From Alphaproteobacteria bacterium (GTDB lineage: Bacteria; Pseudomonadota; Alphaproteobacteria; Micropepsales; Micropepsaceae), in NCBI GenBank assembly GCA_947467345.1, contig CANIHD010000024.1, positions 1-39,444 of the forward strand: 39,444 bases of DNA, in the 5' to 3' direction. The notes under the pieces are model-generated. The model worked only from the letters and a program-made list of their open reading frames with translations, had not been told where the DNA came from and did no database searches. How positions within the stretch are numbered: position 1 is the first letter of the stretch; each line of letters starts with the position of its first letter. The position numbers were made by a program, and so were the translations under genes. Positions 398 to 29,922 of this stretch are shown here, in pieces.

Positions 398-1201
398 CTA
401 CCCGAGCGCCGCCGTCACGGCACGCCCGGCCATAACGCTGACCAGATGGGCGCGGTATTCCGCCGAGCCATGAATATCGCCGTTCAGCCCGTCCGCCGAT
501 TGCTTGGTAGCGCTTGCGGCCTGCGGCGAAAAATTCTTGGCGAGCGCCTGTTCCATCTCGGTCTGGCGAAACACGCACGATCCGGCGCCGGTAACAGCCA
601 CACGCACCGCATTGCCGAAATCGGCCACGAACACGCCGACCATGGCGTAGCGCGAGGCCGGATTGGGAAATTTCGCGTAACCGGCGCGGCGCGGAATCGG
701 AAACGCGATGGAGGTCAATATCTCGGCCTCTTCCAGCGCTGTTGAAAACATGCCGGTGAAGAATTCGTCGGCCGCAATCGTGCGGCGCGTCGTCGTGATT
801 GTGGCACCGAGCGCCAAGACAGACGACGGGTAATCAGCGGAAGGGTCATTATTGGCGACCGAGCCGCCCATCGTGCCGCGATTGCGCACCGCCGGATCGC
901 CGATATGGGAGGCGAGAAAGCTCAATGCCGGGATAGCCGCCTTCACCACATCGGAGTCGGCAACGTCGATGTGCCGTGTGCGCGCGCCAACCACCAACGT
1001 ATCGCCTTCGCGGCGCGTGAACGCCATGCCCGGAATTTTTTCCAGATCGATCACGTCCTGCGGCGCGGCAAGACGTAGCTTCATGGTCGGAATCAGCGTC
1101 ATGCCGCCCGACAAATATTTCGCGTCGGCGCTGGCCTTGAAGATCTTCTCGGCTTCTTCAAGCGTCGTGGGACGGCTGAAATGGAACGGTACCGGATACA
1201 T
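398..1201 (-). CDS. Molybdenum hydroxylase FAD-binding (medium) subunit, CoxM-like
   Basis: This 267-residue protein would carry FAD in a three-subunit molybdenum hydroxylase (xanthine oxidase/CO dehydrogenase superfamily). It passes electrons from the Fe-S subunit to an acceptor. The N-terminus YPVPFHFSRPTTLEEA is typical of CoxM/CutM proteins. YLSGGMTLIPTMKLRL (about residues 29-44) is the first FAD-binding loop, with GGM replacing the common GGQ. RNRGTMGGSVANNDPSADYP (about 107-126) is the second, pyrophosphate-binding loop. It starts 2 bases after the stop of the small-subunit gene at 1204, so the two are surely co-transcribed. The matching large subunit is on the other strand at 1882. 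The length is slightly short for the family (about 280-290) but complete. The substrate cannot be told from this subunit. Confidence 0.9.
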   Translation of the reverse strand: MYPVPFHFSRPTTLEEAEKIFKASADAKYLSGGMTLIPTMKLRLAAPQDVIDLEKIPGMAFTRREGDTLVVGARTRHIDVADSDVVKAAIPALSFLASHIGDPAVRNRGTMGGSVANNDPSADYPSSVLALGATITTTRRTIAADEFFTGMFSTALEEAEILTSIAFPIPRRAGYAKFPNPASRYAMVGVFVADFGNAVRVAVTGAGSCVFRQTEMEQALAKNFSPQAASATKQSADGLNGDIHGSAEYRAHLVSVMAGRAVTAALG

Positions 1202-1203
1202 GT

Positions 1204-1665
1204 CTACCCTTCCGCCGCGGCGCGGATCGCCTTGACGATATTATGATAGCCGGTGCAGCGGCAGAGATTGCCTTCGAGTTCGTGGCGGATCGTGTCCTCG
1301 TTCGGGTTCTTGTGCCGCTTCAGCATGGCTGCCGCCGTCATCAACATGCCCGGCGTGCAGAAGCCGCATTGCAAAGCGTGATGTTCTTGGAAGGCAGCCT
1401 GCAACGGCCCAAGAGTACCGTCTTTATTGGTCAAGCTTTCCACCGTGGCGACTGTTTCGCCGTTCGCCTGCACCGCAAACATCGTGCACGACTTCACCGC
1501 TCGCCCGTTCAGATGGACGACGCAGCAGCCGCATTGGCTGGTGTCGCAGCCAATATGCGTGCCGGTCAGGCCCATCTGGTCGCGCAGGAAATGGGCGAGC
1601 AGCATATGCTCCTCAACCTCGGCGGAAACGGCAACGCCATTGAGGGTGAGCGTGATGGCGGTCAT
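1204..1665 (-). CDS. Molybdenum hydroxylase 2Fe-2S (small) subunit, CoxS-like
   Basis: This is a 153-residue iron-sulfur subunit with two [2Fe-2S] domains. The plant-ferredoxin-like domain has Cys40, Cys45, Cys48 and Cys60 (motif CDTSQCGCC, with an extra Cys47 where most relatives have Ala). The C-terminal helical domain has CGFC (100, 103) and CRC (135, 137) before TGYHNI. It relays electrons from the Mo site of the large subunit to FAD. The start at 1665 (MTAITLTLNG) is chosen because the family begins there and GAGAG lies just upstream; an in-frame ATG at 1692 would add nine unlikely residues. It is the first gene of the minus-strand operon with the FAD subunit and is divergent from the large-subunit gene. 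Confidence 0.93.
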   Translation of the reverse strand: MTAITLTLNGVAVSAEVEEHMLLAHFLRDQMGLTGTHIGCDTSQCGCCVVHLNGRAVKSCTMFAVQANGETVATVESLTNKDGTLGPLQAAFQEHHALQCGFCTPGMLMTAAAMLKRHKNPNEDTIRHELEGNLCRCTGYHNIVKAIRAAAEG

Positions 1666-1881
1666 GAAACTCTCAAACTGGAGGGGGCCCACGCCCTGTC
1701 AACGGGGGCGAACCTAGAGCATGATCTCGCCGGATTGAAGCGTTTCGAAAAAATGCTTTGGTCGCTATGCGCACGGAATTCTTCGCTCTGGTTCAGGCGG
1801 CGCGAGGCGGGTAAAAGCCACTGCCCTGCCGGCCTCAGAACCGCTAAGAGCGGGGCCACGGGATACGAAAACGCACTAAAT
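1666..1881. promoter_or_regulatory. Divergent promoter region between the Mo-hydroxylase subunit genes
   Basis: These 216 bases separate the small-subunit start (minus) and the large-subunit start (plus), so both promoters should lie here. A CTAGAGCATGATC motif sits at 1714-1726. That string is one arm of a palindromic intergenic repeat I recall as common in Rhizobiales; the second arm is not seen. No clear -35/-10 pair or strong Shine-Dalgarno for the 1882 start is visible. Confidence 0.5.
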
Positions 1882-4212
1882 ATGTTCGATGAAACGCTGA
1901 TCAAGAATATCGGTAAGGCAATCCGCCGCAAAGAAGACCCCCGCCTTCTCACGGGCCTCGGGCGCTTCAGCGACGATTTCAAACTGCCCGGTATGACATT
2001 CGCCGCCATGGTGCGCTGCCCCTATCCGCACGCGCGCATTCTTAGCGTCGATGGCAGTGCGGCGCTTGAGATGCCCGGCGTGCTTGGCGTTTTCAGCGGC
2101 AAGGATTTGGAAGCGGATGGGCTTGTCGCCATTCCGCATAGTCCCGTGCCATCGACCAAGCACGATATAAAAATCACCGCCCCCGGCGGCGGCAAAATCT
2201 TTGAAGGGCCGCATATGCTACTGCCCACCGACAAAGCGCGCCATGTCGGCGAAGCCGTCGCCATGGTGGTGGCCGAGACGGCGACCCAGGCATTGGACGC
2301 GGCGGAAGCGGTTTTCGTGGACTATGAAGTTCTGCCGCACATCACCGAAACTGACAAAGCCTACGCGCCCGATGCACCTTTGGTGTGGGACGAGGCCCCG
2401 AACAACACGCTTGTCGATACGATTTTCGGCGATCCCGCCGGCACCGACGCAGCGTTCGCCAAGGCCGCGCATGTGGTCAAAGCGCGTTTCCATATCGACC
2501 GCGTGACGGCGGTGCCGCTCGAGCCGCGTTCGGCGCTCGCAGCGTACGATCCCAACACCAAGCGTTTCATGCTCTACGCCGGCAGCGGCGGCGCCGTGCG
2601 CCAAAAAAACGAGCTCACCAAGGTTCTCGGCATCGATCCCAATGACATGCGCGTGGTCTCCATCGATGTCGGCGGCAATTTCGGCGCCCGCAATCGCGTC
2701 TATGTCGAATTCGGGTTGATCACATGGGCCGCGCGCAAGTTGGGGCGCCCGGTCAAATACACCGCCACGCGTTCGGAATCGTTTCTCACCGATTACCAGG
2801 GCCGAGATCTGGTGACGCGCGTGGAATTGGCCATCGATAAAGACGGGCATTTCCTCGCCATGCGCGCCGACAATATTTCGAATGTCGGCGCCCGCTGCGT
2901 ATCGCTATCGCCGCTCGGCAAAGGTTCGGCATTGATAACCGGCAGCTATAACATTCCAGTGGCCACGTTGCGTTCGCGCGCGGTGTTCACCAACACGATG
3001 TGTACGCAAGCCTATCGGAGCTCGGGACGCCCGGAAGTCACCTACGCCATCGAACGCCTAACCGAATTGGCGGCGCTGCAATGCGGCTTCGATCATTTGG
3101 AACTGCGGCGCAAAAATTTGGTTCCGCCTGACGCGATGCCTTACGTGAATGCCGTTGGCACGCGCTACGATAGCGGCACATATCTCACGAACATGAATCG
3201 CACACTCGAACTCGCCGACTGGAACGGATTCGAGGAAAGGCGTCAAGAAGCGGCGACACGCGGCGTACTCTTGGGCCGCGGCTTTGCGAACTATGTCGAA
3301 TCCTCCACGGGCGCGCCGCGCGAGCGCGCCGAGATTCGCGTCAAGCCGGATGGCGGGGTGGATGTCGTTATCGGCACCCAGCCCAGCGGCCAGGGCCATG
3401 AAACAAGTTTTGCGCAAGTCGTCGCCGACATGCTGGGTCAGCCGGTCGAGAAAGTGACGATCATTTACGGCGATACCGATGTCGTTTCGGTCGGCGGCGG
3501 TTCGCATTCGGGCCGCTCGATGCGCCACGCCGGCACGGTCATGACCATGGCCTCACAGGATATGATCGATTTGGGCCGCGCGCGCGCTGGCGAATTATTT
3601 GGCGAGGCGAAAGAGCGCGTCGAATTCAAAGACGGTCGCTTCTTTATTCCCGGCACCAATCACGCCATCGGGCTTATCGAACTTTCCGCCGCCATACCGG
3701 GCAAGCCGCTTGAGGTCGGGCGCACCAATGAGATGCACGAACCGGTTTTTCCGAATGGCGCCGCGTCTTGCGAGCTGGAAATCGATCCCGACACCGGCAG
3801 CATCAATCTTGTTCGTTACACCACCGTTGACGATGTCGGCCGCTGCATCAATCCGATGATTGTCGATGGACAAACCCATGGCGGCATCGCGCAAGGCGTG
3901 GGCCAGGCGATGGGCGAATTATGTGTGGTCGATCCGGAATCGGGCCAGATGTTGACCGGCTCGTTCCAAGATTACTGCATCCCGCGTTCCGACACGCTGC
4001 CCAGCTTCACCACCGAGATCGCGGAAGTTCTGTCCCCCACCAACCCGCTCGGCATCAAAGCCGGCGGCGAAGGCGGCACCACACCGGCGCTTGCGGTCAT
4101 CGTCAACGCCGCCGTGGATGCGCTGAAACCCTACGGCATCACCGATCTTCAGATGCCGCTGACACCGCACGCGATCTGGAAAGCCGTTCAGACAGCAAAA
4201 GAAAAAAGGTAA
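1882..4212 (+). CDS. Molybdenum hydroxylase large (Mo-cofactor) subunit, CoxL-like
   Basis: This 776-residue protein would bind molybdopterin-cytosine dinucleotide and hydroxylate its substrate with oxygen from water. The N-terminus GKAIRRKEDPRLLTGLGRFSDD is the usual start of the aldehyde oxidase/xanthine dehydrogenase a/b hammerhead domain. Later come the substrate-pocket motif AYRSSGRPE (often AYRGAGRPE), the cofactor segment QPSGQGHETSFAQV and the base-catalyst loop IKAGGEGGT with Glu730. The CO-dehydrogenase signature AYxCSFR is absent, so this is not a form I CO dehydrogenase. The start at 1882 is chosen by homology. The frame stays open far upstream, but that part is antisense to the small subunit. 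It is transcribed away from its partner subunits and is followed after 5 bases by the binding-protein gene. Likely substrates are an aromatic, heteroaromatic or aldehyde compound; which one is unknown. Confidence 0.9.
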   Translation: MFDETLIKNIGKAIRRKEDPRLLTGLGRFSDDFKLPGMTFAAMVRCPYPHARILSVDGSAALEMPGVLGVFSGKDLEADGLVAIPHSPVPSTKHDIKITAPGGGKIFEGPHMLLPTDKARHVGEAVAMVVAETATQALDAAEAVFVDYEVLPHITETDKAYAPDAPLVWDEAPNNTLVDTIFGDPAGTDAAFAKAAHVVKARFHIDRVTAVPLEPRSALAAYDPNTKRFMLYAGSGGAVRQKNELTKVLGIDPNDMRVVSIDVGGNFGARNRVYVEFGLITWAARKLGRPVKYTATRSESFLTDYQGRDLVTRVELAIDKDGHFLAMRADNISNVGARCVSLSPLGKGSALITGSYNIPVATLRSRAVFTNTMCTQAYRSSGRPEVTYAIERLTELAALQCGFDHLELRRKNLVPPDAMPYVNAVGTRYDSGTYLTNMNRTLELADWNGFEERRQEAATRGVLLGRGFANYVESSTGAPRERAEIRVKPDGGVDVVIGTQPSGQGHETSFAQVVADMLGQPVEKVTIIYGDTDVVSVGGGSHSGRSMRHAGTVMTMASQDMIDLGRARAGELFGEAKERVEFKDGRFFIPGTNHAIGLIELSAAIPGKPLEVGRTNEMHEPVFPNGAASCELEIDPDTGSINLVRYTTVDDVGRCINPMIVDGQTHGGIAQGVGQAMGELCVVDPESGQMLTGSFQDYCIPRSDTLPSFTTEIAEVLSPTNPLGIKAGGEGGTTPALAVIVNAAVDALKPYGITDLQMPLTPHAIWKAVQTAKEKR

Positions 4213-5162: not shown

Positions 5163-5756
5163 CTACTCTTCCCGCGGTTCGGCTTCCGTCCAGCGTTTAA
5201 CGGCGCCGGTGTCGATGTCGAAGAGGTCAAGCAACCGGCCCACTGTGTGGTCCACAATATCGTCCAGCGATTTCGGCCGCGTGTAGAAGGCCGGCACGAT
5301 CGGCGCCACAATCGCGCCCATCTCGGACACTTGCAGCATGGTGCGCAAATGCCCGCTATGCAGCGGCGATTCGCGGAAGCCGAGAACGAGGCGCCGGCGC
5401 TCTTTCAGAACCACGTCAGCGGCGCGGCTCATCAGCGTGCCGGTCACGCCGGAGGCGATCTCGCTCATCGTGCGCACAGAGCACGGCAGGATCAGCATGC
5501 CCATGGTGCGGAACGAGCCCGACGAGATCGAGGCGCCGATGTCGCCGATCGGGTGTACGACGCTGGCCATTTCCTTCAGCGCCTTCGGCTTTATATCCAC
5601 CTCATAGCTCATGGTGAGCTCGGCGGATTTGGACAGCACGAGATGGGTCTCGATATCGGTCTGGCGCAGGAACTCCAAAGCCCGGATGCCGTAGATCACG
5701 CCCGAGGCACCGCTGATGCCCAGAATGATGCGCCGCTTGCTTTGGTCCTTAGCCAT
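5163..5756 (-). CDS. ubiX: Flavin prenyltransferase UbiX (prFMN synthase)
   Basis: UbiX joins dimethylallyl (mono)phosphate to FMNH2 to give prenylated FMN, the cofactor of UbiD-family (de)carboxylases. At 197 residues it has the family's length. Visible signatures are the FMN-binding ILGISGASGVIYG near the N-terminus, SSGSFRTMGMLILPCS in the middle, the SEIASG segment and the C-terminal YTRPKSLDDIVDHTVGRLLD. A GAGGGG/AAGGGA purine stretch precedes the ATG at 5756. It is the only UbiX in the window while four UbiD homologues follow, so it probably supplies all of them. Its stop is 6 bases from that of the convergent binding-protein gene, and it diverges from the first MFS gene. Confidence 0.95.
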   Translation of the reverse strand: MAKDQSKRRIILGISGASGVIYGIRALEFLRQTDIETHLVLSKSAELTMSYEVDIKPKALKEMASVVHPIGDIGASISSGSFRTMGMLILPCSVRTMSEIASGVTGTLMSRAADVVLKERRRLVLGFRESPLHSGHLRTMLQVSEMGAIVAPIVPAFYTRPKSLDDIVDHTVGRLLDLFDIDTGAVKRWTEAEPREE

Positions 5757-8890: not shown

Positions 8891-8902
8891 GCGCGTCTAC
8901 GT
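8885..8902. terminator. Shared stem-loop holding both convergent stop codons
   Basis: ACGTAG (8885-8890) and CTACGT (8897-8902) form a perfect 6-bp stem around GCGCGT. Each arm contains the TAG stop of one of the two convergent genes (symporter on plus, crotonase on minus). The short stem has no U-tract, so it is at best a weak bidirectional terminator; rho-dependent ending is equally possible. Confidence 0.35.
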
Positions 8903-9688
8903 TCCGTTGAAGCGCGGGGGACGTTTTTCGCCGAAGGCGAGAATGCCTTCGCGGTAATCGTCGGACATGCGCAGGCGACCGTAATATTGCCCTTCGCGCT
9001 CAATGGCGTCGGCAAGCGGCAATTCTTCGCCTTCGTTGATAAGCTGCTTCAGCGTCCGCTGCGCCAGTGGCGAGAAGGCGCGAAGCTCGTCGACCAGCCC
9101 ATCGGTGGCGGAGCCAAGCAAATCGTCCTTCACGCATTCAGTGGCGATTCCCAGCGCGATCGCCTCGGCGGCCTCGATGCGCTTTGAACGCATGAGAAGA
9201 TTTTTTGCGCGCGTGATGCCGACCATGCGCTGCAGCCGCGCCGAGCCGCCGGAGCCCGGAATTTGACCGAGTTTCTGCTCGGGCAGGGAATAGACACAGG
9301 TCTCAGAAATAAGCCGGAAATCGCAGGCAAGTGAGAGTTCGAAGCCAACGCCGAAGCAATAGCCGCGATTGGCTGCGATGACGGGTTTGGTGCAGCGCGC
9401 CGGGGCCGCGATATTCACAGCAAGCTTCAACAGCGTTTCCGGAGTTGCGTCGAGAAAGCCGCGAATATTGCCGCCGCTGGAAAAATGCGTGCCTTCAGAC
9501 CGCAATACGATCACGCGCACGCTTTTGTCGGCATCGAGTTCTTCGAACACGCGGCGAAGCTGATCGCGTTGTACCAGCGAGATGATGTTCAGTGGCGGAC
9601 GGTCGAGAATAATATCGCCGCGTTCGCGGGCGGGATCGATGTCGACGCGAAATCCGTCGAGGGCTTCGCCGTTCAATATGTTTGTCAC
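8897..9688 (-). CDS. Enoyl-CoA hydratase/isomerase (crotonase) family protein
   Basis: This 263-residue crotonase-fold enzyme acts on an acyl-CoA thioester in the cytoplasm. The oxyanion-hole segments are HFSSGGNIRGF and GYCFGVGFELSLACDFRL, and SLPEQKLGQIPGSGGSARLQR follows. Both positions matching the two catalytic Glu residues of enoyl-CoA hydratase (in GFELS and LPEQ) are Glu, so hydration/dehydration or hydrolysis is possible. The GTG start at 9688 is chosen over longer frames because GAAGGGA lies just upstream; the longer frame adds an Arg-rich, non-family extension. It follows the CoA-ligase gene by 40 bases in the same direction, so it should act on the thioester that ligase makes. A role like HmfE of furoate degradation (2-oxoglutaryl-CoA hydrolysis) is one option, but not shown. 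Confidence 0.88.
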   Translation of the reverse strand: MTNILNGEALDGFRVDIDPARERGDIILDRPPLNIISLVQRDQLRRVFEELDADKSVRVIVLRSEGTHFSSGGNIRGFLDATPETLLKLAVNIAAPARCTKPVIAANRGYCFGVGFELSLACDFRLISETCVYSLPEQKLGQIPGSGGSARLQRMVGITRAKNLLMRSKRIEAAEAIALGIATECVKDDLLGSATDGLVDELRAFSPLAQRTLKQLINEGEELPLADAIEREGQYYGRLRMSDDYREGILAFGEKRPPRFNGT

Positions 9689-9728: not shown

Positions 9729-11309
9729 TCAGGCCGGCGTCTTTGTCCGCTGTGTCCATTCGTCGCGAAGCCTGTCGCGCAGCACCTTTCCGCGGTCATT
9801 GCGCGGCAGCGTGTTGATCACAAACAGCGCCTTAGGTCTTTTCGCCAAAGGCAATTTGCCTTCGCAGTAAAGGCGAATGGTCTCTTCGATGCCGCTCACG
9901 CCCGGTTTCGGCACCAGAAAAGCCACAACCTCTTCGCCGTAGATGGGATCGGGCACGCCCACCGACGCCGCTTCGTCGATATCGGGATGCGCCAGCAGTA
10001 CGCCGTCGATTTCTACCGGCGCGATGTTCATGCCGCCGCGAATAATCAGATCCTTGGTGCGCCCCGTGACGCGGACGAATCCCTCCTCGTCCATGACCGC
10101 GAGATCGCCCGTCTTGTTGCGCTTGCCGCGATAGGGATCGATGGAACCATCGGCGTTGAGATAGCCGAGAGCGGTTTGCGGTCCGCCGATACTGACTTCG
10201 CCCTCGACATTCGGCGGACAGAGATTTCCCGCCTCGTCCACAATGGCGAATTCCTGATGTGCGGCAGGCGGGCCGACCGTGCCCATGCGCCGGCGATAAT
10301 GCCGATTGCCGCAAATCCAGCCGGCTTCCGACATGCCGTAGAGCTGCAGCAAGGTCAGGCCATAGAGGAATTCAAAGCGCTGCCATTGCTCGGGCGAAAG
10401 CGGCGCCGTGCTGCAGGTCATCAGGCGAAGGCTTGGAATGTCCTTGGCCGTGTAACCCAGCGGCTTGTTCAGCAGCATGTTCACAACCGTGGGCACGCCG
10501 GCGGAAAAGCTAATTTCGTGTTTCTTGATCCATTCGAAGAAACGGCTGTGCGAGAAGCGCTTGGCGATATGCATCGTGAGGCCGGTTTCGAGAAACGGCA
10601 TCAGACTCAAAACTTGCGCCGAATTCCAACCGAAGGAGCGATATTCCAGCGTGCGATCGTTTTCCGTCAGGCCCAGCATATCGAGGACAGACAGGCCGCT
10701 GAGCCAATAGGCGGCGTGATCGTAGACCACGATCTTCGGCTTGTCGGTCGTGCCCGAGGTGCAGAACATGCAGGAAATATCGGACGCTTCGTTGCGCTCC
10801 GGTAGGCTGGCCGGATCGGCGCCGCGCTTTAGCGCGGTGAAGAACTGATCGCCGGCATCGGGGTTTTGTTCGTCCATGTCGGGCTCGCCGAAGCGGACGA
10901 CCGGCGCGGTCGCGCAGACTGTAAGCGCTGCGGCATGGAGATCTTCGTGCACCAAAATAAGTTTGGGCCCGATGATCTCAATCAGCGCCGCAATATGCTC
11001 GACATTGAGTTCGATATTGAGCGGGCAGACCACGGCGCCGATGCGCCAGATGCCGAACCACAGCAAAAGCTTATCCAGCACCTCGTCGGACAAAAGCACC
11101 ACGCGGTCGCCTTTGCCAATCCCACGCCGTTTTAGATCGGCCGCGATATCGCAGACGATTCTATCGAGATCACCGAAAGTGATCGAGGTGCCTTGATCGA
11201 GATCGACAATAGCAAGCTTGGCAGGATCGCGCACTGCGTAAGACGCAAGAAGTTCGGCGACCGAGCGAAACGGCAGCGCCAATTCATGCTTGCCAAATAC
11301 GTCGCTCAT
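9729..11309 (-). CDS. AMP-forming acyl/aryl-CoA ligase
   Basis: This 526-residue ANL-superfamily ligase would activate a carboxylic acid with ATP and CoA. Visible signatures are MFCTSGTTDKPKIVVYDH (the P-loop, about residue 182), LYGMSEAG (motif A5), TGDLAVMDEEGFVRVTGRTK (A7/A8 hinge), DLIIRGGMNI, and a C-terminal RNDRGKVLR whose Lys is the usual adenylation lysine. The length is normal for the family. It stands between an unusual UbiD-like gene (26 bases upstream) and a crotonase gene (40 bases downstream) in one minus-strand operon. The substrate is therefore probably an aromatic, furanic or alicyclic acid whose thioester is processed further. Benzoate-, furoate- and cyclohexenoate-type ligases are all possible; the acyl pocket cannot be read reliably by eye. 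Confidence 0.9.
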   Translation of the reverse strand: MSDVFGKHELALPFRSVAELLASYAVRDPAKLAIVDLDQGTSITFGDLDRIVCDIAADLKRRGIGKGDRVVLLSDEVLDKLLLWFGIWRIGAVVCPLNIELNVEHIAALIEIIGPKLILVHEDLHAAALTVCATAPVVRFGEPDMDEQNPDAGDQFFTALKRGADPASLPERNEASDISCMFCTSGTTDKPKIVVYDHAAYWLSGLSVLDMLGLTENDRTLEYRSFGWNSAQVLSLMPFLETGLTMHIAKRFSHSRFFEWIKKHEISFSAGVPTVVNMLLNKPLGYTAKDIPSLRLMTCSTAPLSPEQWQRFEFLYGLTLLQLYGMSEAGWICGNRHYRRRMGTVGPPAAHQEFAIVDEAGNLCPPNVEGEVSIGGPQTALGYLNADGSIDPYRGKRNKTGDLAVMDEEGFVRVTGRTKDLIIRGGMNIAPVEIDGVLLAHPDIDEAASVGVPDPIYGEEVVAFLVPKPGVSGIEETIRLYCEGKLPLAKRPKALFVINTLPRNDRGKVLRDRLRDEWTQRTKTPA

Positions 11310-11335: not shown

Positions 11336-12910
11336 TCAGTGTCCGGTGCGGGCCAGAATCTCGGTCCAGCCCTTCATCGCGTCCTTCACCGTGCGGATCT
11401 GGTCCTTGGTGAAGAAATCTTCCAGCTTCACCCGGTTTACCGGATATTGCGGTCGCATGAAATCCTGCTCGAAGCCGTAAGGCACCGTCGCGTCAATGCC
11501 CATGCCGCCTTCATAACGCGTGTTGGTGGCGGTCCATTCTTTATCGCCCGCGGTCATGCGCTCCGCCGGCATGAAGGTTTGTCCGCGCCCGCCCGGCGTT
11601 GGATTGAGGATGTCGGTTTTGGGATTCACCCGCGTCGTGATGCACCACATCACCTCATCCATACTGTAAATATTGGTGTCTTCGCTGCAGGCAATCGCCA
11701 TGCGCATCCCTTGCGAGGTCGACAGCAAAGCCGCCATGAAATTGCGCTGCCAGCCTTCTTCCAGACGGTTGCGCTTCTTCACCTGAATAATGACGCCGCC
11801 CCAATCCGTCATGCAGTAAGGAATATTCACGTCCTGAATGATGCCGGGCTGCATGCGATTGCAGAGCTCATACATCGCCGCTTCGCGCATCGACGTGTCG
11901 ATATTGTGCTCGTCCAGCGTGTGCGCGCCGAGGCAATAGATGATCGGCTTGGATTCCGGTTTGCGCATAGTGACGGCGGTCACATGGAACGTGGGCGCCT
12001 TATAGGATTTACCCATATAGCCGGCCCATTCGGGATGGAAATGATGCTTGCCCTGGGTCTGGTCGGCTTCGGCTTCCGCGGTTTCGAAACGCGTGTCGCG
12101 CGGATCGATATAGCCTTCCAGAACAATTTCGGAATCGGCGATGGCCATGGCATCCACCGTGCGCGCCTTCACCAGCCGCACCGGCGACCCCTGCGCCGCA
12201 CCGGCAACGCCGATTTCGTCGCAGCCATAGGGAAGGATCACGTAGTCGAACGCAGCGCCCGCCAGCAGCGTGCAAGCGGCCGGAACGCCGAAACACACGG
12301 TCAACGGCACGCGCTCGCGCTTGCGATACGCCTCGCTCACGACCTGCCACATATGCGAGCCCGGCGAGATCTGGAACGTGCCGACATTACCCCAGCGGAA
12401 ATTCATACGGTTGTAACCGACATCGGTACCGTCACCGAATGCGGCGCCCGTGACGCAGCGAATGCCCGACCCGACCGTCAGCTCCTTTTCCAGCTCGGTG
12501 TGACGAATGGGAACAAGGTACGGCGCCACGTCTTTCGGATTCTCGATCACCACTTCCTGACACGGCGCTTCCGATTGCTCGATCACCCGCGGCGGCAGCG
12601 GACGATTGAGCGCCCTCGCCAGCTTGATGGTGCGGTCCTTGTCGCTCTCCCAGCCGAACATGCGATTGATCACTTCGATATTGCCGAAGAGATTGGTCAC
12701 CACGCGGTGGTTTGGCTTGCCTTTGACATGATCGAACAGAACCGGATTGCCGCCATCCATCAGCTTCTGAAGGCCGGTGATCTGAAGATCGGGATCAACC
12801 TCTTTCGCAGTCCGGATCAACTCACCTCGGGCCTCCAGCCACGCTAGCGTGCTGCGCAGATCCTTCAGGTGCGTGGTGTCGGGGTGGGATGATGGCGCCA
12901 TTTCGTTCAT
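11336..12910 (-). CDS. UbiD-family (de)carboxylase-like protein with non-canonical catalytic positions
   Basis: This 524-residue UbiD-fold protein should bind prFMN, metal and K+. The order of segments matches UbiD: an N-terminal LKDLRSTLAWLEARGELIRT, then GNPVLFDHVKG, the cofactor region RMNFRWGNVGTFQ, EIVLEGYIDPRD, and HPEWAGYMGK. Canonical UbiD enzymes keep an Arg-Glu-Glu triad (NxGxYR and E-G-P-F-G-E). Here the Arg position reads Gln180 (NVGTFQ), the first Glu position reads His289, and only the second, Glu294, remains. The three other UbiD homologues in this window keep all three. It is the first gene of an operon with a CoA ligase and a crotonase. A thioester substrate, a carboxylation role like phenylphosphate carboxylase subunits, or a different proton-transfer network are all possible. 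The start could also be the ATG four codons in. Confidence 0.85.
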   Translation of the reverse strand: MNEMAPSSHPDTTHLKDLRSTLAWLEARGELIRTAKEVDPDLQITGLQKLMDGGNPVLFDHVKGKPNHRVVTNLFGNIEVINRMFGWESDKDRTIKLARALNRPLPPRVIEQSEAPCQEVVIENPKDVAPYLVPIRHTELEKELTVGSGIRCVTGAAFGDGTDVGYNRMNFRWGNVGTFQISPGSHMWQVVSEAYRKRERVPLTVCFGVPAACTLLAGAAFDYVILPYGCDEIGVAGAAQGSPVRLVKARTVDAMAIADSEIVLEGYIDPRDTRFETAEAEADQTQGKHHFHPEWAGYMGKSYKAPTFHVTAVTMRKPESKPIIYCLGAHTLDEHNIDTSMREAAMYELCNRMQPGIIQDVNIPYCMTDWGGVIIQVKKRNRLEEGWQRNFMAALLSTSQGMRMAIACSEDTNIYSMDEVMWCITTRVNPKTDILNPTPGGRGQTFMPAERMTAGDKEWTATNTRYEGGMGIDATVPYGFEQDFMRPQYPVNRVKLEDFFTKDQIRTVKDAMKGWTEILARTGH

Positions 12911-14397: not shown

Positions 14398-15924
14398 ATG
14401 AGCATTGAACGCAAGCCGGTCGCTTTCGGCGATTTGCGCGGCTGGATCGACGCCCTAAAGAAGCAGGACGAAATCCGCGAGGTAAATTCCGAAGTCGATT
14501 GGAATGTCGAACTCGGTACTGTCATGCGCTTGGCGCAAGGCACCGGCGACGGGCCGGCGCTGCTGTTCAACAACATCAAGGATTACAATGGCGCGAACGC
14601 GCGCTGCCGCAAATTGTTCGGCCTTGGGCTTTCCTCCTATCGCCGCCTCAATCTGATGCTGGGTCTTCCGCTCGACACGCATCCGCGCGAGCTGGTGAAG
14701 ATCGGCCGCAACATCTTGAACGAACGCATTCCGCCGAAAATCGTCGCCACCGGCCCGGTGAAGGAAAACATTCTTAAGGGCGAAGCGGTCGACCTGTACG
14801 ATTTTCCCTCGCCGCTTTGGAACCGCGTCGATGGCGGGCGCTACATTCTGACCTTCGCCGGTTGCGTGACGCGTGATCCTGAAACGGGCGTTCCCAATGT
14901 CGGCATTTATCGCGGCATGGTGGCGGACAAATCCACCATTCCGATGCTGATGTGGCGCGCTCAGCATATCGGCCACCACGCCACGGCCTGGCGCGAATCC
15001 GGCAAAAAGGAAATGCCGATCGCTCTGGTGATCGGCTGGGAACCCTCGCTCGGTTTCTGCGCCGGACAGCCCGTTCCCAAAGGCGTCAGCGAATATGATG
15101 TGATGGGCGCCATTCGCGGCGCGCCCGTCGAACTCGTCAAATGCGAGACCATTGACGTTTATGTTCCCGCCTCAGCAGAAATCGTGATCGAGGGCATGTT
15201 GCAGCTCGATCCCGAAAACTTCGTGATGGAAGGGCCTTTCGCGGAATTCACCGGCTATGTGGCGGGCGACAGATCGCCCAAGCCCGCGGTGCGCGTCACC
15301 TGCATCACCCACCGCAACGATCCCATCTTTCGCGGCACCATCGAAGGCTCGTTGCCGGGAAGCTATTCCGAAAACGCGATCTGCAGTTCGATCATGCGCG
15401 CGGCAACGGCATGGAACGTTCTGGATCGGGCAGGCGTGCCCGGCATTACCGGCGTGTGGTGCCCGCCTGTGCAGGCCGGCATCAATGCCGTGATCCAAAT
15501 GAAGCAGAGCTACCGCAACCAGGCCAAGCAGGCTGCCAACGCGCTCTGGGGCAGTTCGGCTGGCCATGTGCGCTACAAACATGTCACCGTAGTCGATGAC
15601 GATATCGACATTCACGATTACGCTGCGGTGGACTGGGCCATCGCGCACCGCGTGAATGCCGGCGAGAATGACATCATCATCATGCCGTCAACCTTTGGCA
15701 TGGGGCTGGATCCGTCGACGCGGCGGCGCGACCGCAATGCAGCTCTGTTCGGCACCGGCAAATGGAACCGCGTGCTGATCGATGCCACGATGAATCTCGA
15801 TTACGACCCTGACCCCGATTTGGACGGCGCCCGCTTCCCACCCACGGTGTGGCCGAACAAAGAGGACGAAGCGCGCGTGCGCGCCCGCTGGGCCGAATTG
15901 GGTCTGGATGCCAAAAAGACATAG
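14398..15924 (+). CDS. UbiD-family prFMN-dependent decarboxylase (copy A)
   Basis: This 508-residue UbiD homologue probably decarboxylates an aromatic or unsaturated acid reversibly, using prFMN from UbiX, Mn2+ and K+. The canonical triad is intact: Arg172 in NVGIYRG, Glu278 and Glu283 in EGPFAEFTGY. Other family segments are FGDLRGWIDALKKQDEIREV at the start, SAEIVIEG before the Glu loop, and a C-terminal ATMNLDYDPD (DATxK-like) loop. A GGAG site precedes the ATG by 7 bases. It follows the ACS transporter by 32 bases and precedes the fused Mo hydroxylase by 27, so carboxylate import, decarboxylation and ring hydroxylation may be successive steps. Which acid it uses is not readable from the sequence. 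Confidence 0.92.
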   Translation: MSIERKPVAFGDLRGWIDALKKQDEIREVNSEVDWNVELGTVMRLAQGTGDGPALLFNNIKDYNGANARCRKLFGLGLSSYRRLNLMLGLPLDTHPRELVKIGRNILNERIPPKIVATGPVKENILKGEAVDLYDFPSPLWNRVDGGRYILTFAGCVTRDPETGVPNVGIYRGMVADKSTIPMLMWRAQHIGHHATAWRESGKKEMPIALVIGWEPSLGFCAGQPVPKGVSEYDVMGAIRGAPVELVKCETIDVYVPASAEIVIEGMLQLDPENFVMEGPFAEFTGYVAGDRSPKPAVRVTCITHRNDPIFRGTIEGSLPGSYSENAICSSIMRAATAWNVLDRAGVPGITGVWCPPVQAGINAVIQMKQSYRNQAKQAANALWGSSAGHVRYKHVTVVDDDIDIHDYAAVDWAIAHRVNAGENDIIIMPSTFGMGLDPSTRRRDRNAALFGTGKWNRVLIDATMNLDYDPDPDLDGARFPPTVWPNKEDEARVRARWAELGLDAKKT

Positions 15925-15951: not shown

Positions 15952-18900
15952 ATGAGTGCGCCTGCGCCAATTGAGCATGCCGGACTGCGCCCTGCTGGAG
16001 AGGGGCCTCATGTCGGGCGGGCGCTTCCGCGCAAAGAGGATGCCGCGCTTCTTTCCGGGCGCGGGCGTTTCGCCGATGATGTAGCGGCGCCGCCCGGCAC
16101 GCTGGTGGCGCATGTGCTGCGCTCGCCGCACGCCCATGCGATGATCCAACGCATCGATATTAAAGCGGCGCTGGCCCTTCCCGGCGTGCGAGCGGTCATT
16201 ACCGGCGACGACATACGCAAGCTGTCCGATCCGTTTCTGGTCGCGGTGAAAGAGCCGTTGCCGCAATGGGCGCTGGCGGTAGAGCGCGTGCGCTATGTCG
16301 GCGAACCCGTAGCGGTGATCGTGGCGACGAGCCGCTACATCGCCGAAGACGCGTCAGAGCTGGTCGAAATCACTTACGAACCTTTGCCCGCCATCATCGA
16401 TACACGCGAGGCGATGAAAGAGGGTGCGCCTTTGGTGCATCCCGAGGCGCGTTCAAACGCCGTCGGCAAGCGCAGTTTCCGCTACGGCGATCCGGAAACC
16501 GCGTTCGCCGAAGCGGATGCGGTGGTGGAACTAACGGTCGAGTATCCGCGCAATTCCTTCACGCCGATGGAATGTTTCGTCGTCGTCGCGGAATATCGCG
16601 CGCACGAACAAAGCTATGACGTGCTCTCGAATTTTCAGGGCCCGTTCAGCGCCCATCCTGTTATGGCGCGTGCGTTGCGCGTGCCCGGCAATCGCCTGCG
16701 CTTGCGCACGCCGGCGGATAGCGGCGGCAGTTTCGGAATCAAGCTCTCGGTGTTTCCATACATCGTTTTGATGGGGCTGGCCTCGCGCATTGTCGGCAAG
16801 CCTGTGAAATGGGTGGAAGACCGGCTGGAGCATTTGCTCGCCGCGAGTGCTGGGCCCAACCGCGTTACCAACATCGCCGCCGCCGTCAAACGCGACGGGC
16901 GCATCACAGCTCTGCGCATGGACCAGATGGAAGATTACGGCGCCTTTTTGCGCGCGCCGATGCCAGGACCGCTTTATCGCATGCACGGCGCCAGCACCGG
17001 CGCCTATGACATCAAAAATCTTTCCGTTAGCAACACGATCGTTCTGACCAACAAAGCTCCGGCGGGACTCATTCGCGGCTTCGGCGGGCCGCAGCTTTAT
17101 TTGGCACTGGAACGCTTGATCCAACGCATCTCGGTCGAGCTTGGCATCGATCATATCGAGATCATCCGCCGCAATCTGATTCCGGGCGGCGTATTCCCTT
17201 ACAAAGCGGCAGCCGGCGCGCTCTACGATTCCGGCGACTATCCGAAGGCGGTTGAGATAGCCCTTGGCAGCGGACGCTATGACGCGCTGGTGCGCCGCCG
17301 CAATGAAGCGCGCGCGTCGGGACGACATTACGGCATAGGCTTTGCCGTCGTTGTCGAACCCGGCATGTCGAATATGGGTTATCTCTCGACATTGCTGCCG
17401 CACGCGGTGCGCGAACGCACCGGTCCCAAGAACGGCGCCGTGTCTCTTGCCACCGTCAATGTCGATCCTTTGGGCGCGGTGACGGTGACGGCAGACGCAC
17501 CCGTGCAAGGGCAGGGTCATGCCACCACTCTGTCGCAGATCGTAGCTGATCAATTGGGCCTCGACCCCGACGACATCACCGTCAATCTGGAAATGGATAC
17601 GCAGAAAGATGCGTGGTCCATCGCCAGCGGAACCTATTCTTGCCGCTTCTCACCGGGCACAGCAGTGGCCGCGCACATGGCCGCGGAGCGCATTCGCGAT
17701 AAACTCCTGCGTATCGCCGCCAAGCAGCTGAATGTTTTGCCCGACGATGTCGAGCTGGCCGATGGCAAAGCCCGCAGCCGCAGCAATCCCGACAATGCAT
17801 TGCCATTCGCGCGCGTCGCCGGCACTGCACATTGGTCGCCCGTGATGCTGCCCGACGGCATGGAGCCGGGTTTGCGCGAAACCGCGACGTGGTGCCCGCC
17901 GGAACTGGAACCGCCGTCGCGAGACGACAGGATCAACACCTCGCTGACCTATGGCTTCGTATTCGATATGTGCGGCATCGAGATCGACCCCGTGACGTTT
18001 CAGGTACGCGTCGACCGTTATGTTTCGATGCACGATGCCGGGAGCCTGCTCAATCCGTTGCTCGCCGAAGGCCAGATGAAGGGCGCCTTCGTGCAAGGCC
18101 TCGCTTCGGCGCTTTACGAGGAATTCATCTATGACGAGCGCGGCAGCTTTCTCACCGGTACGTTCGCAGACTATCTGGTGCCCACCGCGCACGAGGTTCC
18201 CGCACTGGAATTGCTGCATATCGAATCGCCCTCGCCGTTCACGCCACTCGGCGCCAAGGGCCTTGCCGAAGGCAATTGCATGAGCGTGCCGGCCTGCATC
18301 GCCAACGCCATTGCCGATGCGCTTCGAGTCAAAGAGGTGCCCCTGCCCGCAAGCCCGCGGCGCATCCATGCCATACTTGCCGGACCCGAAGCGAAACCGC
18401 CATCAACACACACGCATGCTGTTGCACCTTCGCGCGGCGGACGTGACATCACCGGTCGCGGCAGCTTCGACGTGAAAGCTTCTCCCGCCGATGTCTGGCA
18501 CTCACTGCTTGATCCTGCAGCGCTTAAAGCCGTCATTCCCGGTTGCCACAGCCTGGAACTGGAAAGCGAAAACGCCTATCGCGCCGATGTATCACTGGGC
18601 GTTGGCCCGGTGCGCGGGCGTTTCGTTGCCCATGTGCGGTTGTCGGATCTCGAACTGGAACGCTCAGCGCAGCTTTCGGGCGATCTTGCCGGCGCGTTGG
18701 GCGCCGCATCCGGTGGCGGACATGTGCGCCTCTCGCCCATCGCAGGCGGCACGAGGCTCGACTACGATTACACCGTGACGTTGAGCGGCAAGGCTGCTGC
18801 GGTGGGCGGGCGGCTGCTCGACAGCGCGGCCGACATCGTCATCCGCAAATTCTTCGAAGGCCTCGCGCGTCATATGGCAACGCCTGATACGAGCGCCGGA

Positions 18901-18960
18901 GAGAGATTTCTTGCGCGATTTTGGCGTGGACTCGCGAAGCTATTAGGCGGGCGCGCATGA
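15952..18960 (+). CDS. Molybdenum hydroxylase large subunit fused to a CoxG-like SRPBCC domain
   Basis: This 1002-residue protein is longer than the usual 760-800 because of a C-terminal fusion. Residues about 20-800 form the Mo-cofactor subunit: VGRALPRKEDAALLSGRGRFADD, LIRGFGGPQ in the substrate channel, APVQGQGHATTLSQIVADQLG near the cofactor, and GAKGLAEG with the probable base Glu773. After a Pro/His/Thr linker, residues about 830-980 read ITGRGSFDVKASPADVWHSL and continue as a CO-dehydrogenase-subunit-G (CoxG/polyketide-cyclase-like) domain, ending in a basic amphipathic tail FLARFWRGLAKLLGGRA. CoxG proteins are thought to help anchor or mature Mo hydroxylases at the membrane, so the tail may tether this one. 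The gene overlaps the FAD-subunit gene by ATGA. It is likely a dehydrogenase hydroxylating an N-heterocycle or aromatic; the substrate is unknown. Confidence 0.9.
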   Translation: MSAPAPIEHAGLRPAGEGPHVGRALPRKEDAALLSGRGRFADDVAAPPGTLVAHVLRSPHAHAMIQRIDIKAALALPGVRAVITGDDIRKLSDPFLVAVKEPLPQWALAVERVRYVGEPVAVIVATSRYIAEDASELVEITYEPLPAIIDTREAMKEGAPLVHPEARSNAVGKRSFRYGDPETAFAEADAVVELTVEYPRNSFTPMECFVVVAEYRAHEQSYDVLSNFQGPFSAHPVMARALRVPGNRLRLRTPADSGGSFGIKLSVFPYIVLMGLASRIVGKPVKWVEDRLEHLLAASAGPNRVTNIAAAVKRDGRITALRMDQMEDYGAFLRAPMPGPLYRMHGASTGAYDIKNLSVSNTIVLTNKAPAGLIRGFGGPQLYLALERLIQRISVELGIDHIEIIRRNLIPGGVFPYKAAAGALYDSGDYPKAVEIALGSGRYDALVRRRNEARASGRHYGIGFAVVVEPGMSNMGYLSTLLPHAVRERTGPKNGAVSLATVNVDPLGAVTVTADAPVQGQGHATTLSQIVADQLGLDPDDITVNLEMDTQKDAWSIASGTYSCRFSPGTAVAAHMAAERIRDKLLRIAAKQLNVLPDDVELADGKARSRSNPDNALPFARVAGTAHWSPVMLPDGMEPGLRETATWCPPELEPPSRDDRINTSLTYGFVFDMCGIEIDPVTFQVRVDRYVSMHDAGSLLNPLLAEGQMKGAFVQGLASALYEEFIYDERGSFLTGTFADYLVPTAHEVPALELLHIESPSPFTPLGAKGLAEGNCMSVPACIANAIADALRVKEVPLPASPRRIHAILAGPEAKPPSTHTHAVAPSRGGRDITGRGSFDVKASPADVWHSLLDPAALKAVIPGCHSLELESENAYRADVSLGVGPVRGRFVAHVRLSDLELERSAQLSGDLAGALGAASGGGHVRLSPIAGGTRLDYDYTVTLSGKAAAVGGRLLDSAADIVIRKFFEGLARHMATPDTSAGERFLARFWRGLAKLLGGRA

Positions 18961-19769
18961 AACCGCGTCCCTTCACCTATGTGCGCCCCCATTCTGTTGC
19001 CGAGGCCGTTGCGGCGCTCAGCCGCCATGGCGAGAGCGCACGCATTCTTGCCGGCGGACAATCGCTGGTGGCGATGTTGAATCTGCGCTTGGTCGAGGCT
19101 TCGGCCATCATCGACATTTCGCGGCTTACTGAACTTTCGAACATGCGCGTCGTCGGCAATGCTCTGGAAGTGGGCGCGGCGGTCACGCAAAACCGGTTGC
19201 TCACTTGGCCAGATTTGGCAAAGCGCCTGCCGCTTCTGGCGGTTGCCCTCCCGAATGTGGGCCATTTCCAAACCCGCAATCGCGGCACGGTGTGCGGCTC
19301 CATTGCTCATGCCGATCCGAGCTCCGAAATACCTCTATCGCTTGCCATGCTCGGCGGCGAAGTGGTTTTGGCATCGCCGCGCGGCACCCGCACGCTGAAG
19401 GCCCAGGAATTTCAAACCGGCGTTTTGTCCACCTCGCGGGCACCCGACGAAATGATCATCGCCGGGCGGTTTCCATTGGACAAAAGCCGCACCGCTGCCT
19501 TTCGCGAAGTGTCACGCCGGCAAGGCGATTTCGCCATTGTCGCCATCGGCGCCTATTTGAAAGATGCGGATACGATATGCCTTGGCATTGGCGGCGCGGC
19601 GGATCGCCCCTTCGTCACCGACATTGCGCTGGGCAAACCGGTGACCGATCAAATCGAGGACATTGTGTGGCAGCTTGGCGGCCATGAAGACATTCACGCC
19701 ACGCCGCATATGCGGCGCGATCTTGTTCGCCGCCTGGCGCCTATCGTGATCGAGGAGGCACGCGCATGA
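18957..19769 (+). CDS. Molybdenum hydroxylase FAD-binding (medium) subunit, second set
   Basis: This 270-residue FAD subunit completes the second Mo hydroxylase with the flanking genes. KPRPFTYVRPHSVAEAVAAL is the family start, ILAGGQSLVAMLNLRL the first FAD loop, and RNRGTVCGSIAHADPSSEIP the second. The ATG at 18957 overlaps the upstream TGA (ATGA), and its own stop overlaps the next ATG the same way, so the three subunits are translationally coupled in the order L-M-S. The other Mo enzyme, at 398-4212, is split over two strands instead. The two FAD subunits differ enough (GGQ versus GGM, GTVCG versus GTMGG) to be separate enzymes rather than a recent duplication. Confidence 0.92.
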   Translation: MKPRPFTYVRPHSVAEAVAALSRHGESARILAGGQSLVAMLNLRLVEASAIIDISRLTELSNMRVVGNALEVGAAVTQNRLLTWPDLAKRLPLLAVALPNVGHFQTRNRGTVCGSIAHADPSSEIPLSLAMLGGEVVLASPRGTRTLKAQEFQTGVLSTSRAPDEMIIAGRFPLDKSRTAAFREVSRRQGDFAIVAIGAYLKDADTICLGIGGAADRPFVTDIALGKPVTDQIEDIVWQLGGHEDIHATPHMRRDLVRRLAPIVIEEARA

Positions 19770-20266
19770 GCGAGATTGAAAAGGGTGCTCGCGTTCCAGT
19801 CCAATTGGTTTTGAACGGCACCGCACACACAGGGTTTGCCGAGTCGCGCATGTTGCTTTCAGATTTCTTGCGCGAGGTGCTAGGCGCTACTGATGTTCAT
19901 GTCGGCTGCGAACACGGCGTGTGCGGCTGCTGCACAGTTCTCATTGATGGCGTGGCCGCGCGCTCGTGCCTGACACTCGCGGTGCAGGCGGAAGCCACCA
20001 CGATTGAAACGGCCTCGTCGCTGGCAAGTGCGGATGGCGAACTTAACCATCTGCAAGCCGCATTCCGCAAACATCATGCGCTGCAATGCGGTTTCTGCAC
20101 GCCCGGCATTTTGATGTCGCTGACGGATTTGCTGCGGCGCGAACCGGAACCCACGCGCGAGCGCGTGGTCGATGTCGTCAGCGGGCATCTCTGCCGCTGC
20201 ACCGGCTATTCTGGGATCATCGACGCGGCCATGGACGCGGTTAACGCCGGATCACCTAAGACATAG
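19766..20266 (+). CDS. Molybdenum hydroxylase 2Fe-2S (small) subunit, second set
   Basis: This is a 166-residue iron-sulfur subunit. The first cluster site has Cys48, Cys53, Cys56 and Cys68 (CEHGVCGCC...SC). The CEHGVCGxC form is common in nicotine/quinoline- and carbon-monoxide-type small subunits and differs from the CDTSQCGxC form of the other set. The second site has Cys108, Cys111, Cys143 and Cys145 (CGFC...CRCTGYSGI). It starts in a 4-base ATGA overlap with the FAD subunit. It ends the Mo-hydroxylase module; the 99 bases that follow carry an imperfect dyad TTTCAC/GTGAAA at 20281-20303 and could hold an internal promoter for the hydrolase genes. Confidence 0.93.
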   Translation: MSEIEKGARVPVQLVLNGTAHTGFAESRMLLSDFLREVLGATDVHVGCEHGVCGCCTVLIDGVAARSCLTLAVQAEATTIETASSLASADGELNHLQAAFRKHHALQCGFCTPGILMSLTDLLRREPEPTRERVVDVVSGHLCRCTGYSGIIDAAMDAVNAGSPKT

Positions 20267-20365: not shown

Positions 20366-20830
20366 ATGACGGAAGGCAAATACCGCGAACTTGTGACCGT
20401 TCACGGAAAGAACATTGTGCTGCTGCATGACGAGCCGCCGGTGCGCAATGCCGGGGTCAGCGAGATGGCCGAACTCTTCCGCATGATCAATATCTTCGAC
20501 AAGAAATTCCAGCCCGCCAATTACAACAAGGCCGATGGTTCGCCCTTGCGCATGTTCGATGCGAAATCGGTGAAGGTCGATCTCTCCAAGCGCAGCAAGG
20601 AAGACATGGGCTTCTGGCATCGCAATGTCGACGCGCATGAGATCATCATCTGCATCAAAGGCGCGCTGCGGTGGGAAACCGAGATGGGCATCAAGACCAT
20701 GCACGAAGGCGACATGATGTTCATTCCCAAAGGCATCGCCCACCGCTCGATGCTGTGCGAAGATTCCGCCGAAGAGAACGTGCTTGTCGAATTGAAGATC
20801 GTCGACGAAACCACCTATGTTGGCGGCTGA
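20366..20830 (+). CDS. Single-domain cupin related to the homogentisate-dioxygenase N-terminal cupin
   Basis: This is a 154-residue one-domain cupin. The core FWHRNVDAHEIIICIKGALRW carries the first cupin motif (His-Arg-Asn, later His and Glu), and GDMMFIPKGIAHRS the second, with the final His. The HRNxDxxE plus IPxGxxHR pattern resembles the N-terminal domain of homogentisate dioxygenase, although in that enzyme the iron sits in the other domain. The metal-ligand set (His-His/Glu-His) looks complete, so it may itself be an Fe- or Mn-dependent dioxygenase, an isomerase, or a binding protein. AGGAG lies 8 bases before the ATG. It sits between the Mo hydroxylase and the amidohydrolase, the place in the operon where ring opening would be expected. 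Confidence 0.72.
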   Translation: MTEGKYRELVTVHGKNIVLLHDEPPVRNAGVSEMAELFRMINIFDKKFQPANYNKADGSPLRMFDAKSVKVDLSKRSKEDMGFWHRNVDAHEIIICIKGALRWETEMGIKTMHEGDMMFIPKGIAHRSMLCEDSAEENVLVELKIVDETTYVGG

Positions 20831-20842
20831 CGCAAACATTCC

Positions 20843-22243
20843 ATGGCCGAGCGCGCAGACCTTCTGATCCGAAATATCGACTGGCTCATCACCGTCGATG
20901 CGGGTCGGCGCATTTTCCGCGACGGCGCGATCGCCGTTACGGCGGGAAAAATTATAGCCGTCGGGAAGACCACGGACCTCGCCCAGAATTACGAAGCGGA
21001 CCGGAATATCTCGGGCCGAGAGATGGTGGTGACGCCAGGCTTTATCGACTGCCATCTCCATTCGTCGTTTCATCTCGCGCGCGGCCTGGCCGACGAAGCC
21101 AATGCGCAGGTCTTTCTGTTCGACCGCATGTATCCTTATGAGGCGGCGCTCGAAGGCGAGGACGTGCATGTGGCCGCAACGGCCGCGGCGGCGGAACTTT
21201 TGCGCCATGGCGTCACCTGTTTCGTGGACCCCGGCAATTATCATCCTGACGCTTCGGTCAAAGGCGCGCTTTCGACCGGCATCCGCATGCTGGTGTCGCG
21301 CTCATCGTTTGACCTGACCAAATCCGTGCTCGGCCTTCTGCCAGACAAAATGATCGAGACCACGAAGGTGGCGTTGGAGCGCGCGGAGGCCGTACTACAG
21401 ACCTACGCGCGAACCGACAATCCGCGCCTCACCGCCACCGCTTCGTTTCGTGGGCTTAACAATGCCTCCGATGAATTGATCCTTGGGCTCAAAGCGCTGG
21501 CCGACAAATACGGAACGCTGCTGCAGACCCATGCCTGCTTCAGCTATTCGACGCATGATTCATCGCTGGCGCGCTGCGGCCTGCCCGAAATCGAGCGACT
21601 GGAAAGCCTCGGCGTCATCGACGAGCGTATGCTGATCGTGCACTCGGGCTGGCTAGAGCCGCAAGAGGTCGCCATCCTGGCGCGGCGCAAGCCTTCGCTT
21701 GTCTGCGCTCCCAGTTCCAGCCTGCATAATGGCTACGGCAATTTCGTCGTCGGCAAATTGCCGGAGCTGATGGCGCTCGGCGTCAATGTCGCGCTCGGTT
21801 CCGACCACGCCAGTTCCGGCATCGTGGATATGACGCAGGAAATTCGCGCGGCGTGCTGCGGCTATAAGGAAACCCGGTTCAATCCGCGCGTCATGCCGCC
21901 GGAAACAGGCGTTGAAATGGCGACCATCAACGGCGCCAATGCCACGCCCTGGGGCAACCGGATCGGCAGCGTCGAGGTGGGCAAGGAAGCCGATTTCGTG
22001 ATGTTCGACACCTGTCGCCCGGAATGGCAGCCATTGATCAACCCCGTCTCGAATCTCGTGTACAGCGCCACCGGCGATTCCGTGCGCCATGTCTTTGTCG
22101 CCGGTGAACAGGTAGTTCAAGATGGACATCTGACACGCATCGACGAGAACGCGCTCTACCGCGAAATTCACACTGCCGTGGGGCGCTTCTCCAAACGCCT
22201 CGACATGGACAAGATCGTACAATTGAAATGGCCGGTCCATTGA
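20843..22243 (+). CDS. Amidohydrolase superfamily hydrolase (AtzA/TrzN/SsnA-like)
   Basis: This is a 466-residue metal-dependent hydrolase of the cytosine-deaminase-like amidohydrolases. PGFIDCHLHSSFH gives the HxH metal pair His71 and His73. QTHACFS supplies the third His, IVHSGWL the His near the leaving group, and LGSDHAS the catalytic Asp. N-terminal strands before PGFID and C-terminal VGKEADFVMFD rebuild the small beta-sandwich seen in the family. Members cleave C-N or C-Cl bonds, deaminate heterocycles or open lactams. Next to a Mo hydroxylase, a cyclic amide or enamine produced from an N-heterocycle is an attractive but unproven substrate. It starts 12 bases after the cupin stop with only a weak ribosome site, so coupling is likely. 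Confidence 0.88.
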   Translation: MAERADLLIRNIDWLITVDAGRRIFRDGAIAVTAGKIIAVGKTTDLAQNYEADRNISGREMVVTPGFIDCHLHSSFHLARGLADEANAQVFLFDRMYPYEAALEGEDVHVAATAAAAELLRHGVTCFVDPGNYHPDASVKGALSTGIRMLVSRSSFDLTKSVLGLLPDKMIETTKVALERAEAVLQTYARTDNPRLTATASFRGLNNASDELILGLKALADKYGTLLQTHACFSYSTHDSSLARCGLPEIERLESLGVIDERMLIVHSGWLEPQEVAILARRKPSLVCAPSSSLHNGYGNFVVGKLPELMALGVNVALGSDHASSGIVDMTQEIRAACCGYKETRFNPRVMPPETGVEMATINGANATPWGNRIGSVEVGKEADFVMFDTCRPEWQPLINPVSNLVYSATGDSVRHVFVAGEQVVQDGHLTRIDENALYREIHTAVGRFSKRLDMDKIVQLKWPVH

Positions 22244-23151: not shown

Positions 23152-23198
23152 AGCGGCCGCGCCCACGATACTGATTGCCTGGAAGGGAGAATTCGCAC

Positions 23199-28657: not shown

Positions 28658-28684
28658 TCGGTCCTCCAATTCAGCGTTCTGAAA

Positions 28685-29533: not shown

Positions 29534-29922
29534 CGTGCTGTGTCTCCGAAAGCCGATCGCGAGCCCTCGATGCGGCATCGGACGGGAATGGGGAATGAGG
29601 CAAAAAGCGGGACTTTTGGTATCACGGCCCGTTAAGGGATCAAATAAGAAATTCCCGAAGGTTTACGCTGCGCCGCACGCGTCCTCAGCCCCGCCTTCGC
29701 ACTGCGAACAAAGACGACCCAAAGAGCTGTCTTTACCTTTATTTGCTTGCAATTTTGGCCGTGCCCAGCGCGGGGAAACGGCCAGGCAGATTGTAAAGGG
29801 CGCCGTCTTGCGACATATAGACGGGAGCGAATGAGCGCCTATATAGCGCTTAGAAAACCGCCCCGGTTTCGACCGCAAAACCCGTCGCATCAGCTTCATC
29901 GCGACCCGTAGGAGAGACGACC
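29534..29922. promoter_or_regulatory. Divergent region with a palindrome over a TATATA core
   Basis: This 389-base stretch shows no convincing gene. GGCCGT and ACGGCC (about 29758-29784) form a GC-rich hairpin that may end transcription. AGCGCCTATATAGCGCT at 29834-29850 is a near-perfect palindrome around a TATATA that could be the -10 of the plus-strand gene at 29923, so a repressor or dimeric activator might act there. AGGAGAG at about 29910 is the ribosome site of that gene. Confidence 0.4.

Follow-up and report, generated by a model that had tools for sequence, protein, structure and literature searches.

The UbiD-type protein of an alphaproteobacterial catabolic cluster belongs to the phthaloyl-CoA decarboxylase family and carries the family arginine as R168

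The window (the whole stretch of 39,444 nucleotides analysed here) encodes a UbiD-like protein in which, according to an earlier note, the catalytic Arg and the first Glu of the family had been replaced. The question was whether these replacements are real and, if not, what the protein and its neighbours do. The 524-aa open frame (12910..11336, minus strand) is a real gene. Its codon-position GC (0.59/0.44/0.75) has the pattern of a genuine gene, the antisense ORF opposite it shows the mirrored values, and all three domains of the UbiD family (Pfam UbiD_N, UbiD and UbiD_C; 62.8, 109.7 and 76.3 bits) were found above the gathering score. Neighbouring genes were also called by codon-position GC; longest-ORF calls are upset by antisense ORFs in this GC-rich DNA. 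The two UbiD genes first needed here are:

11336..12910, minus strand: decarboxylase of the UbiD family, in the phthaloyl-CoA decarboxylase (Pcd) clade, with R168, H186, E232 and E294 in canonical columns
14398..15924, plus strand: second UbiD (UbiD2), with canonical NVGIYR and EGPFAE motifs; several relatives also have it next to the decarboxylase

The letters on which the note was based, NVGTFQ (Q180) and HHFHPE (H289 to E294), are present as numbered, but Q180 lies outside the Arg site. The true counterpart of NxGxYR was found by alignment to be D163-V-G-Y-N-R168. R168 was placed in the canonical Arg column (that of Fdc1 R173) by three MAFFT modes, with the segment from Arg to His free of gaps, by hhalign against UbiD2 and by phmmer against AroY. 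The family Arg is thus present, and of Arg168 and Arg172, both named beforehand as candidates for this site, it is Arg168 that occupies the column. In the same alignments H186 is the metal His, E232 the metal Glu and E294 the acid-base Glu. R168 is separated from the metal-site His186 (S-H-M) by 18 residues, a spacing also seen in Fdc (7nf0), HudA (4ip2), AroY, 7pda and UbiD2 (NVGIYR..H); with H186 as the metal His, this spacing fixes the Arg column at R168. Since R168 was aligned by three methods, the assignment of Q180 was a register error, and N175-VGTF-Q180 is best read from the sequences as a decoy and not as the Arg motif. The AF2 model shows a strand at residues 161-173 and a helix at 186-196; Q180 falls in the loop that joins them. 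The NVGTFQ segment (N175..Q180) is identical in the solved Pcds, for which (8oz5/8pmk) residue roles were taken from the alignment and not from coordinates. For AroY, the "Arg181" of the literature (PMC5656893) matches no arginine of the aligned chain when this is numbered so that Arg188 and Glu289 agree; the arginines there are then 171, 177 and 188, and the alignment column was therefore relied on instead of the published number. That this is a UbiD without its catalytic Arg and with altered or non-decarboxylating prFMN chemistry, as the by-eye likeness of NVGTFQ to NxGxYR and the invariance of Q180 might suggest, is very improbable in view of the placement and spacing of R168 and of the occurrence of NVGTFQ in the active enzyme 8pmk.

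Glu294 is the retained second Glu, as had been proposed: it aligns with Fdc1 E282 (second Glu, acid-base) and is invariant in the clade. The first Glu is absent from its site, and no acidic residue was aligned there (Fdc1 E277) in any of the alignments, but His289 is no fixed substitution, residue 289 being H, F, Y or T among 83 clade members. The loop before E294 is longer in the Pcd clade and carries the invariant E276 and E281, one of which might take the place of the first Glu. AroY likewise has no first Glu (GHAMPE), and the missing residue is a trait of the whole clade rather than a mark of novel chemistry in this protein. The three other UbiDs of the window do keep both NxGxYR and E-x-P-F-x-E, as noted earlier (NVGIYR/EGPFAE, NMGNYR/EAPFGE and NMGTYR/EGPFGE).

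The assignment to the Pcd family is firm. In phmmer searches of PDB chains the Pcd entries 8pmk and 8oz5/8p02 scored 821 bits over residues 13-523, whereas the next UbiD, AroY, scored 144 bits; identity to 8pmk (active Pcd with prFMN) was 66% over the full length. Comparison of the AF2 model with solved structures (Foldseek, VIA-align) returned 8oz5 (Pcd with 2-CN-benzoyl-CoA; Z 45.5) and 8pmk (Z 45.2), followed by HmfF (Z 35.3), so that the similarity to Pcd is far over that to any other UbiD in both comparisons. A UbiX gene is present in the window and a CoA-activating enzyme (the ligase at 9729-11309) lies beside the decarboxylase. The only plasmid record above 60% was plasmid 2 of Aromatoleum aromaticum EbN1, where the homologous gene (66.6% identity) adjoins UbiX and two CoA transferases, a layout that agrees with the known phthalate cluster (PMC13040137, PMC9516798, PMC6644310). 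We consider it highly probable that the 524-aa protein is a prFMN-dependent decarboxylase of this family. As to the reactions previously put forward for it, a thioester substrate is supported by the 66% identity to Pcd and the adjacent CoA ligase. Carboxylation is unlikely, since the reverse reaction of PCD was reported to fail (PMC6644310), and nothing supports a non-decarboxylating or otherwise altered prFMN chemistry, the catalytic Arg being present. EbN1 plasmid 2 (L026, 1-1406 and 9950-11533) carries two near-identical Pcd genes about 9 kb apart, separated by an ABC transporter and a further UbiD; the UbiX and CoA transferase genes adjoin just one of the copies.

The known Pcds (8pmk, 8oz5/8p02; Thauera chlorobenzoica and EbN1), of which the T. 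chlorobenzoica enzyme has reportedly been characterised, share with the window enzyme full-length similarity at 66% identity, the motifs NRMNFRWGNVGTFQISPGSHMWQ and FHPEWAGYMGK, the R168/H186/E232/E294 columns, and a UbiX and a CoA-activating enzyme nearby. They differ from it in having His in place of Asp163 (8pmk and the EbN1 copies), in their succinyl-CoA:phthalate CoA transferase where the window has a ligase, and in the subclade replacements G220A, V329A and F466Y; the window genome also has no benzoyl-CoA route. AroY (protocatechuate decarboxylase, 5o3m), the next phmmer match, has the Arg and the second Glu aligned and no first Glu, but shows about 26% identity by structural alignment and uses a free phenolic acid without CoA. 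HmfF (2,5-furandicarboxylate decarboxylase, 6h6v/6h6x) ranks next by structure (Z 35.3; 2.6 A over 399 residues). Alongside its UbiD, the hmf cluster has an enoyl-CoA hydratase-like enzyme as well as a CoA ligase and a molybdenum hydroxylase, a set that resembles the window; HmfF itself, however, acts on the free acid and is 27% identical to the window enzyme by structural alignment.

Encoding stretches for this clade were confirmed 231 times in a collection of bacterial and archaeal genomes, many of them in Alphaproteobacteria and in Binatia/"Deltaproteobacteria" MAGs; 80 of the 231 were kept, giving an alignment of 83 sequences. R168, R172, Q180, H186, E232, H292 and E294 were invariant (83/83). 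Of the Gln and the His whose fixation in a clade was to be checked, Q180, outside the Arg site, is therefore fixed, and the variable His289 is not. A FastTree phylogeny placed the window enzyme within a subclade of Alphaproteobacteria (L027-L043); 8pmk, EbN1 and three relatives with a linked transferase lie on a separate branch. Residues A220, A329 and Y466 set this subclade apart from nearly all other clade members, and residue 329 may lie close to the segment aligned with His327 of AroY, which binds catechol. At position 163, where canonical UbiDs have their metal-site Asn, 80 of the 83 sequences carry Asp and three (8pmk and the two EbN1 copies) carry His. The Thauera Pcd is said, in the title of a 2017 paper, to depend on Fe2+ and K+, and a different metal preference is therefore possible for the window enzyme.

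The remaining genes that bear on function are:

9729..11309, minus strand: AMP-forming acyl/aryl-CoA ligase (Pfam AMP-binding and AMP-binding_C)
8897..9688, minus strand: crotonase/enoyl-CoA hydratase, third gene of a presumed operon (ECH_1, 5.6e-45)
5163..5756, minus strand: UbiX flavin prenyltransferase, prFMN supply (TIGR00421 over cut-off; Pfam Flavoprotein)
15952..20266, plus strand: molybdenum hydroxylase set (FAD subunit, 2Fe-2S subunit and a large subunit that carries a CoxG fusion)
20843..22243, plus strand: TRZ/ATZ-like amidohydrolase, found beside the decarboxylase in L036, L037, L039, L041 and L043

The CoA ligase and the crotonase, already taken as partners of the decarboxylase, do follow it on the minus strand. 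The ligase lies 26 nt downstream, adjoins the decarboxylase in most subclade loci and presumably makes its thioester substrate; together with the kinship to Pcd, its position indicates that the substrate should be the CoA thioester of an ortho-dicarboxylic acid. For the crotonase the longest ORF begins at 9799, a GTG at about residue 38 being the likelier start, and both hydratase Glu positions look retained (GFELS, LPEQ). A crotonase recurs in L027, L029, L030, L035 and L065, with a MaoC hydratase in its place in L031, and a hydratase adjoins the ligase in seven loci. The molybdenum hydroxylase set, a canonical UbiD and an alpha/beta hydrolase also recur in the subclade neighbourhoods; the homologues of the second UbiD in relatives are mostly 80-83% identical.

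The family, the fold, the metal, Arg and Glu columns, the UbiX in the cluster and the ligase as next gene are observed; the steps that follow are proposed on this basis. The ligase would act on an aromatic or heteroaromatic acid with two vicinal (ortho) carboxyl groups and activate one of them. The decarboxylase would bind the thioester, with R168 orienting the free ortho carboxylate over prFMN, and the electron-withdrawing ortho thioester would stabilise the prFMN adduct as CO2 leaves. E294 could then reprotonate the ring carbon, and the product acyl-CoA (benzoyl-CoA if phthaloyl-CoA is the substrate) would pass to the linked crotonase or to another step.

The fate of the product was followed through marker enzymes of benzoyl-CoA degradation. 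BoxB, BcrB/C and OAH were not found over cut-off in the window genome (96% complete), which leaves benzoyl-CoA without a known outlet there; the known o-phthalate pathway, in which benzoyl-CoA passes on to an established route of ring degradation, thus finds no support in this organism. Among the 16 other subclade genomes, some of them incomplete MAGs, BoxB was absent over cut-off from 11, and OAH and BcrB/C from all; counting the window genome, 12 of 17 had neither BoxB nor OAH over cut-off. Two isolates with the gene, Xanthobacter tagetidis ATCC 700314 and Propylenella binzhouense L72, have none of BoxB, BcrBC and OAH over cut-off. The same searches found BoxB over cut-off in 23 of 50 clade genomes and BcrB/C in 11/11 OAH-positive controls, and BoxB and OAH both occur in the sister genomes with a linked transferase (L082, L098 and L103). 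A CoA transferase homologue was not found in the window genome, in a search run without a positive control. Gentisate 1,2-dioxygenase was dropped as a marker of product fate; it occurred in 33/42 genomes and does not discriminate.

Substrate and product fate in the subclade may thus differ from the phthalate to benzoyl-CoA scheme. One reading, which we hold marginally likelier than a plain Pcd though at somewhat under an even chance, is that the enzyme acts on another vicinal dicarboxylyl-CoA (from a phthalate bearing hydroxyl groups or an aromatic analogue with N, O or S in the ring), the product being hydrated by the linked crotonase or MaoC enzyme; that the molybdenum hydroxylase and the amidohydrolase belong to the same pathway is held just as tentatively. 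The absence of a benzoyl-CoA route from most subclade genomes, the hydratase beside the ligase in seven loci, and the recurrence of the molybdenum hydroxylase and ATZ-like amidohydrolase point this way, as does the description of a subclade member, Xanthobacter tagetidis, as thiophene-degrading (PMC6624754). Against it, five subclade genomes have BoxB, and the neighbours may serve other pathways of a catabolic island. A plain Pcd, with the ligase activating phthalate and benzoyl-CoA being broken down through free benzoate or some route not yet recognised, is also possible but clearly short of an even chance: the identity to active Pcd is 66% and the active-site motifs are almost identical, but 12 of 17 subclade genomes are without BoxB and OAH, none of the 17 has BcrB/C over cut-off, and G220A, V329A and F466Y are specific to the subclade. 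The use of a natural, non-phthaloyl dicarboxylyl-CoA that feeds a hydratase would mean an undescribed aerobic CoA-dependent ring-degradation pathway in the alphaproteobacterial subclade, a proposal about which we remain nearer doubt than belief.

The comparison corrects the mistaken claim of a UbiD without its Arg, the supposed anomaly being largely a misaligned motif. It also shows Pcd-type enzymes to be far more widespread than the few known anaerobic phthalate degraders, and the remaining interest lies in this widespread, apparently non-phthalate use. If the substrate is indeed another one, natural relatives of this kind would be the source from which the enzyme for xenobiotic phthalate was recruited. 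What Pcd-type enzymes did before plastics, and from which relatives the phthalate pathway came, has become a testable question.

Several further features of the window were recorded. A second molybdenum hydroxylase set lies at 398-4212, giving two sets within 20 kb; in the large subunit of the set at 15952-20266 the CoxG domain is at the C-terminus. A small cupin protein (154 aa; 20366-20830, plus strand) is encoded between the molybdenum hydroxylase and the amidohydrolase; among 19 subclade loci that were compared, 8 contain a homologue. The two further UbiDs, each of about 555 aa (23175-24839, plus strand; 26996-28669, minus strand), have HmfF as best solved match (about 132-135 bits) and flank an HpaB-type flavin monooxygenase (24868-26346). 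A gentisate 1,2-dioxygenase (31129-32187, minus strand; TIGR02272 over cut-off) and an FAA-hydrolase gene (28685-29578) were also found, which suggests a gentisate-type route within the catabolic island.
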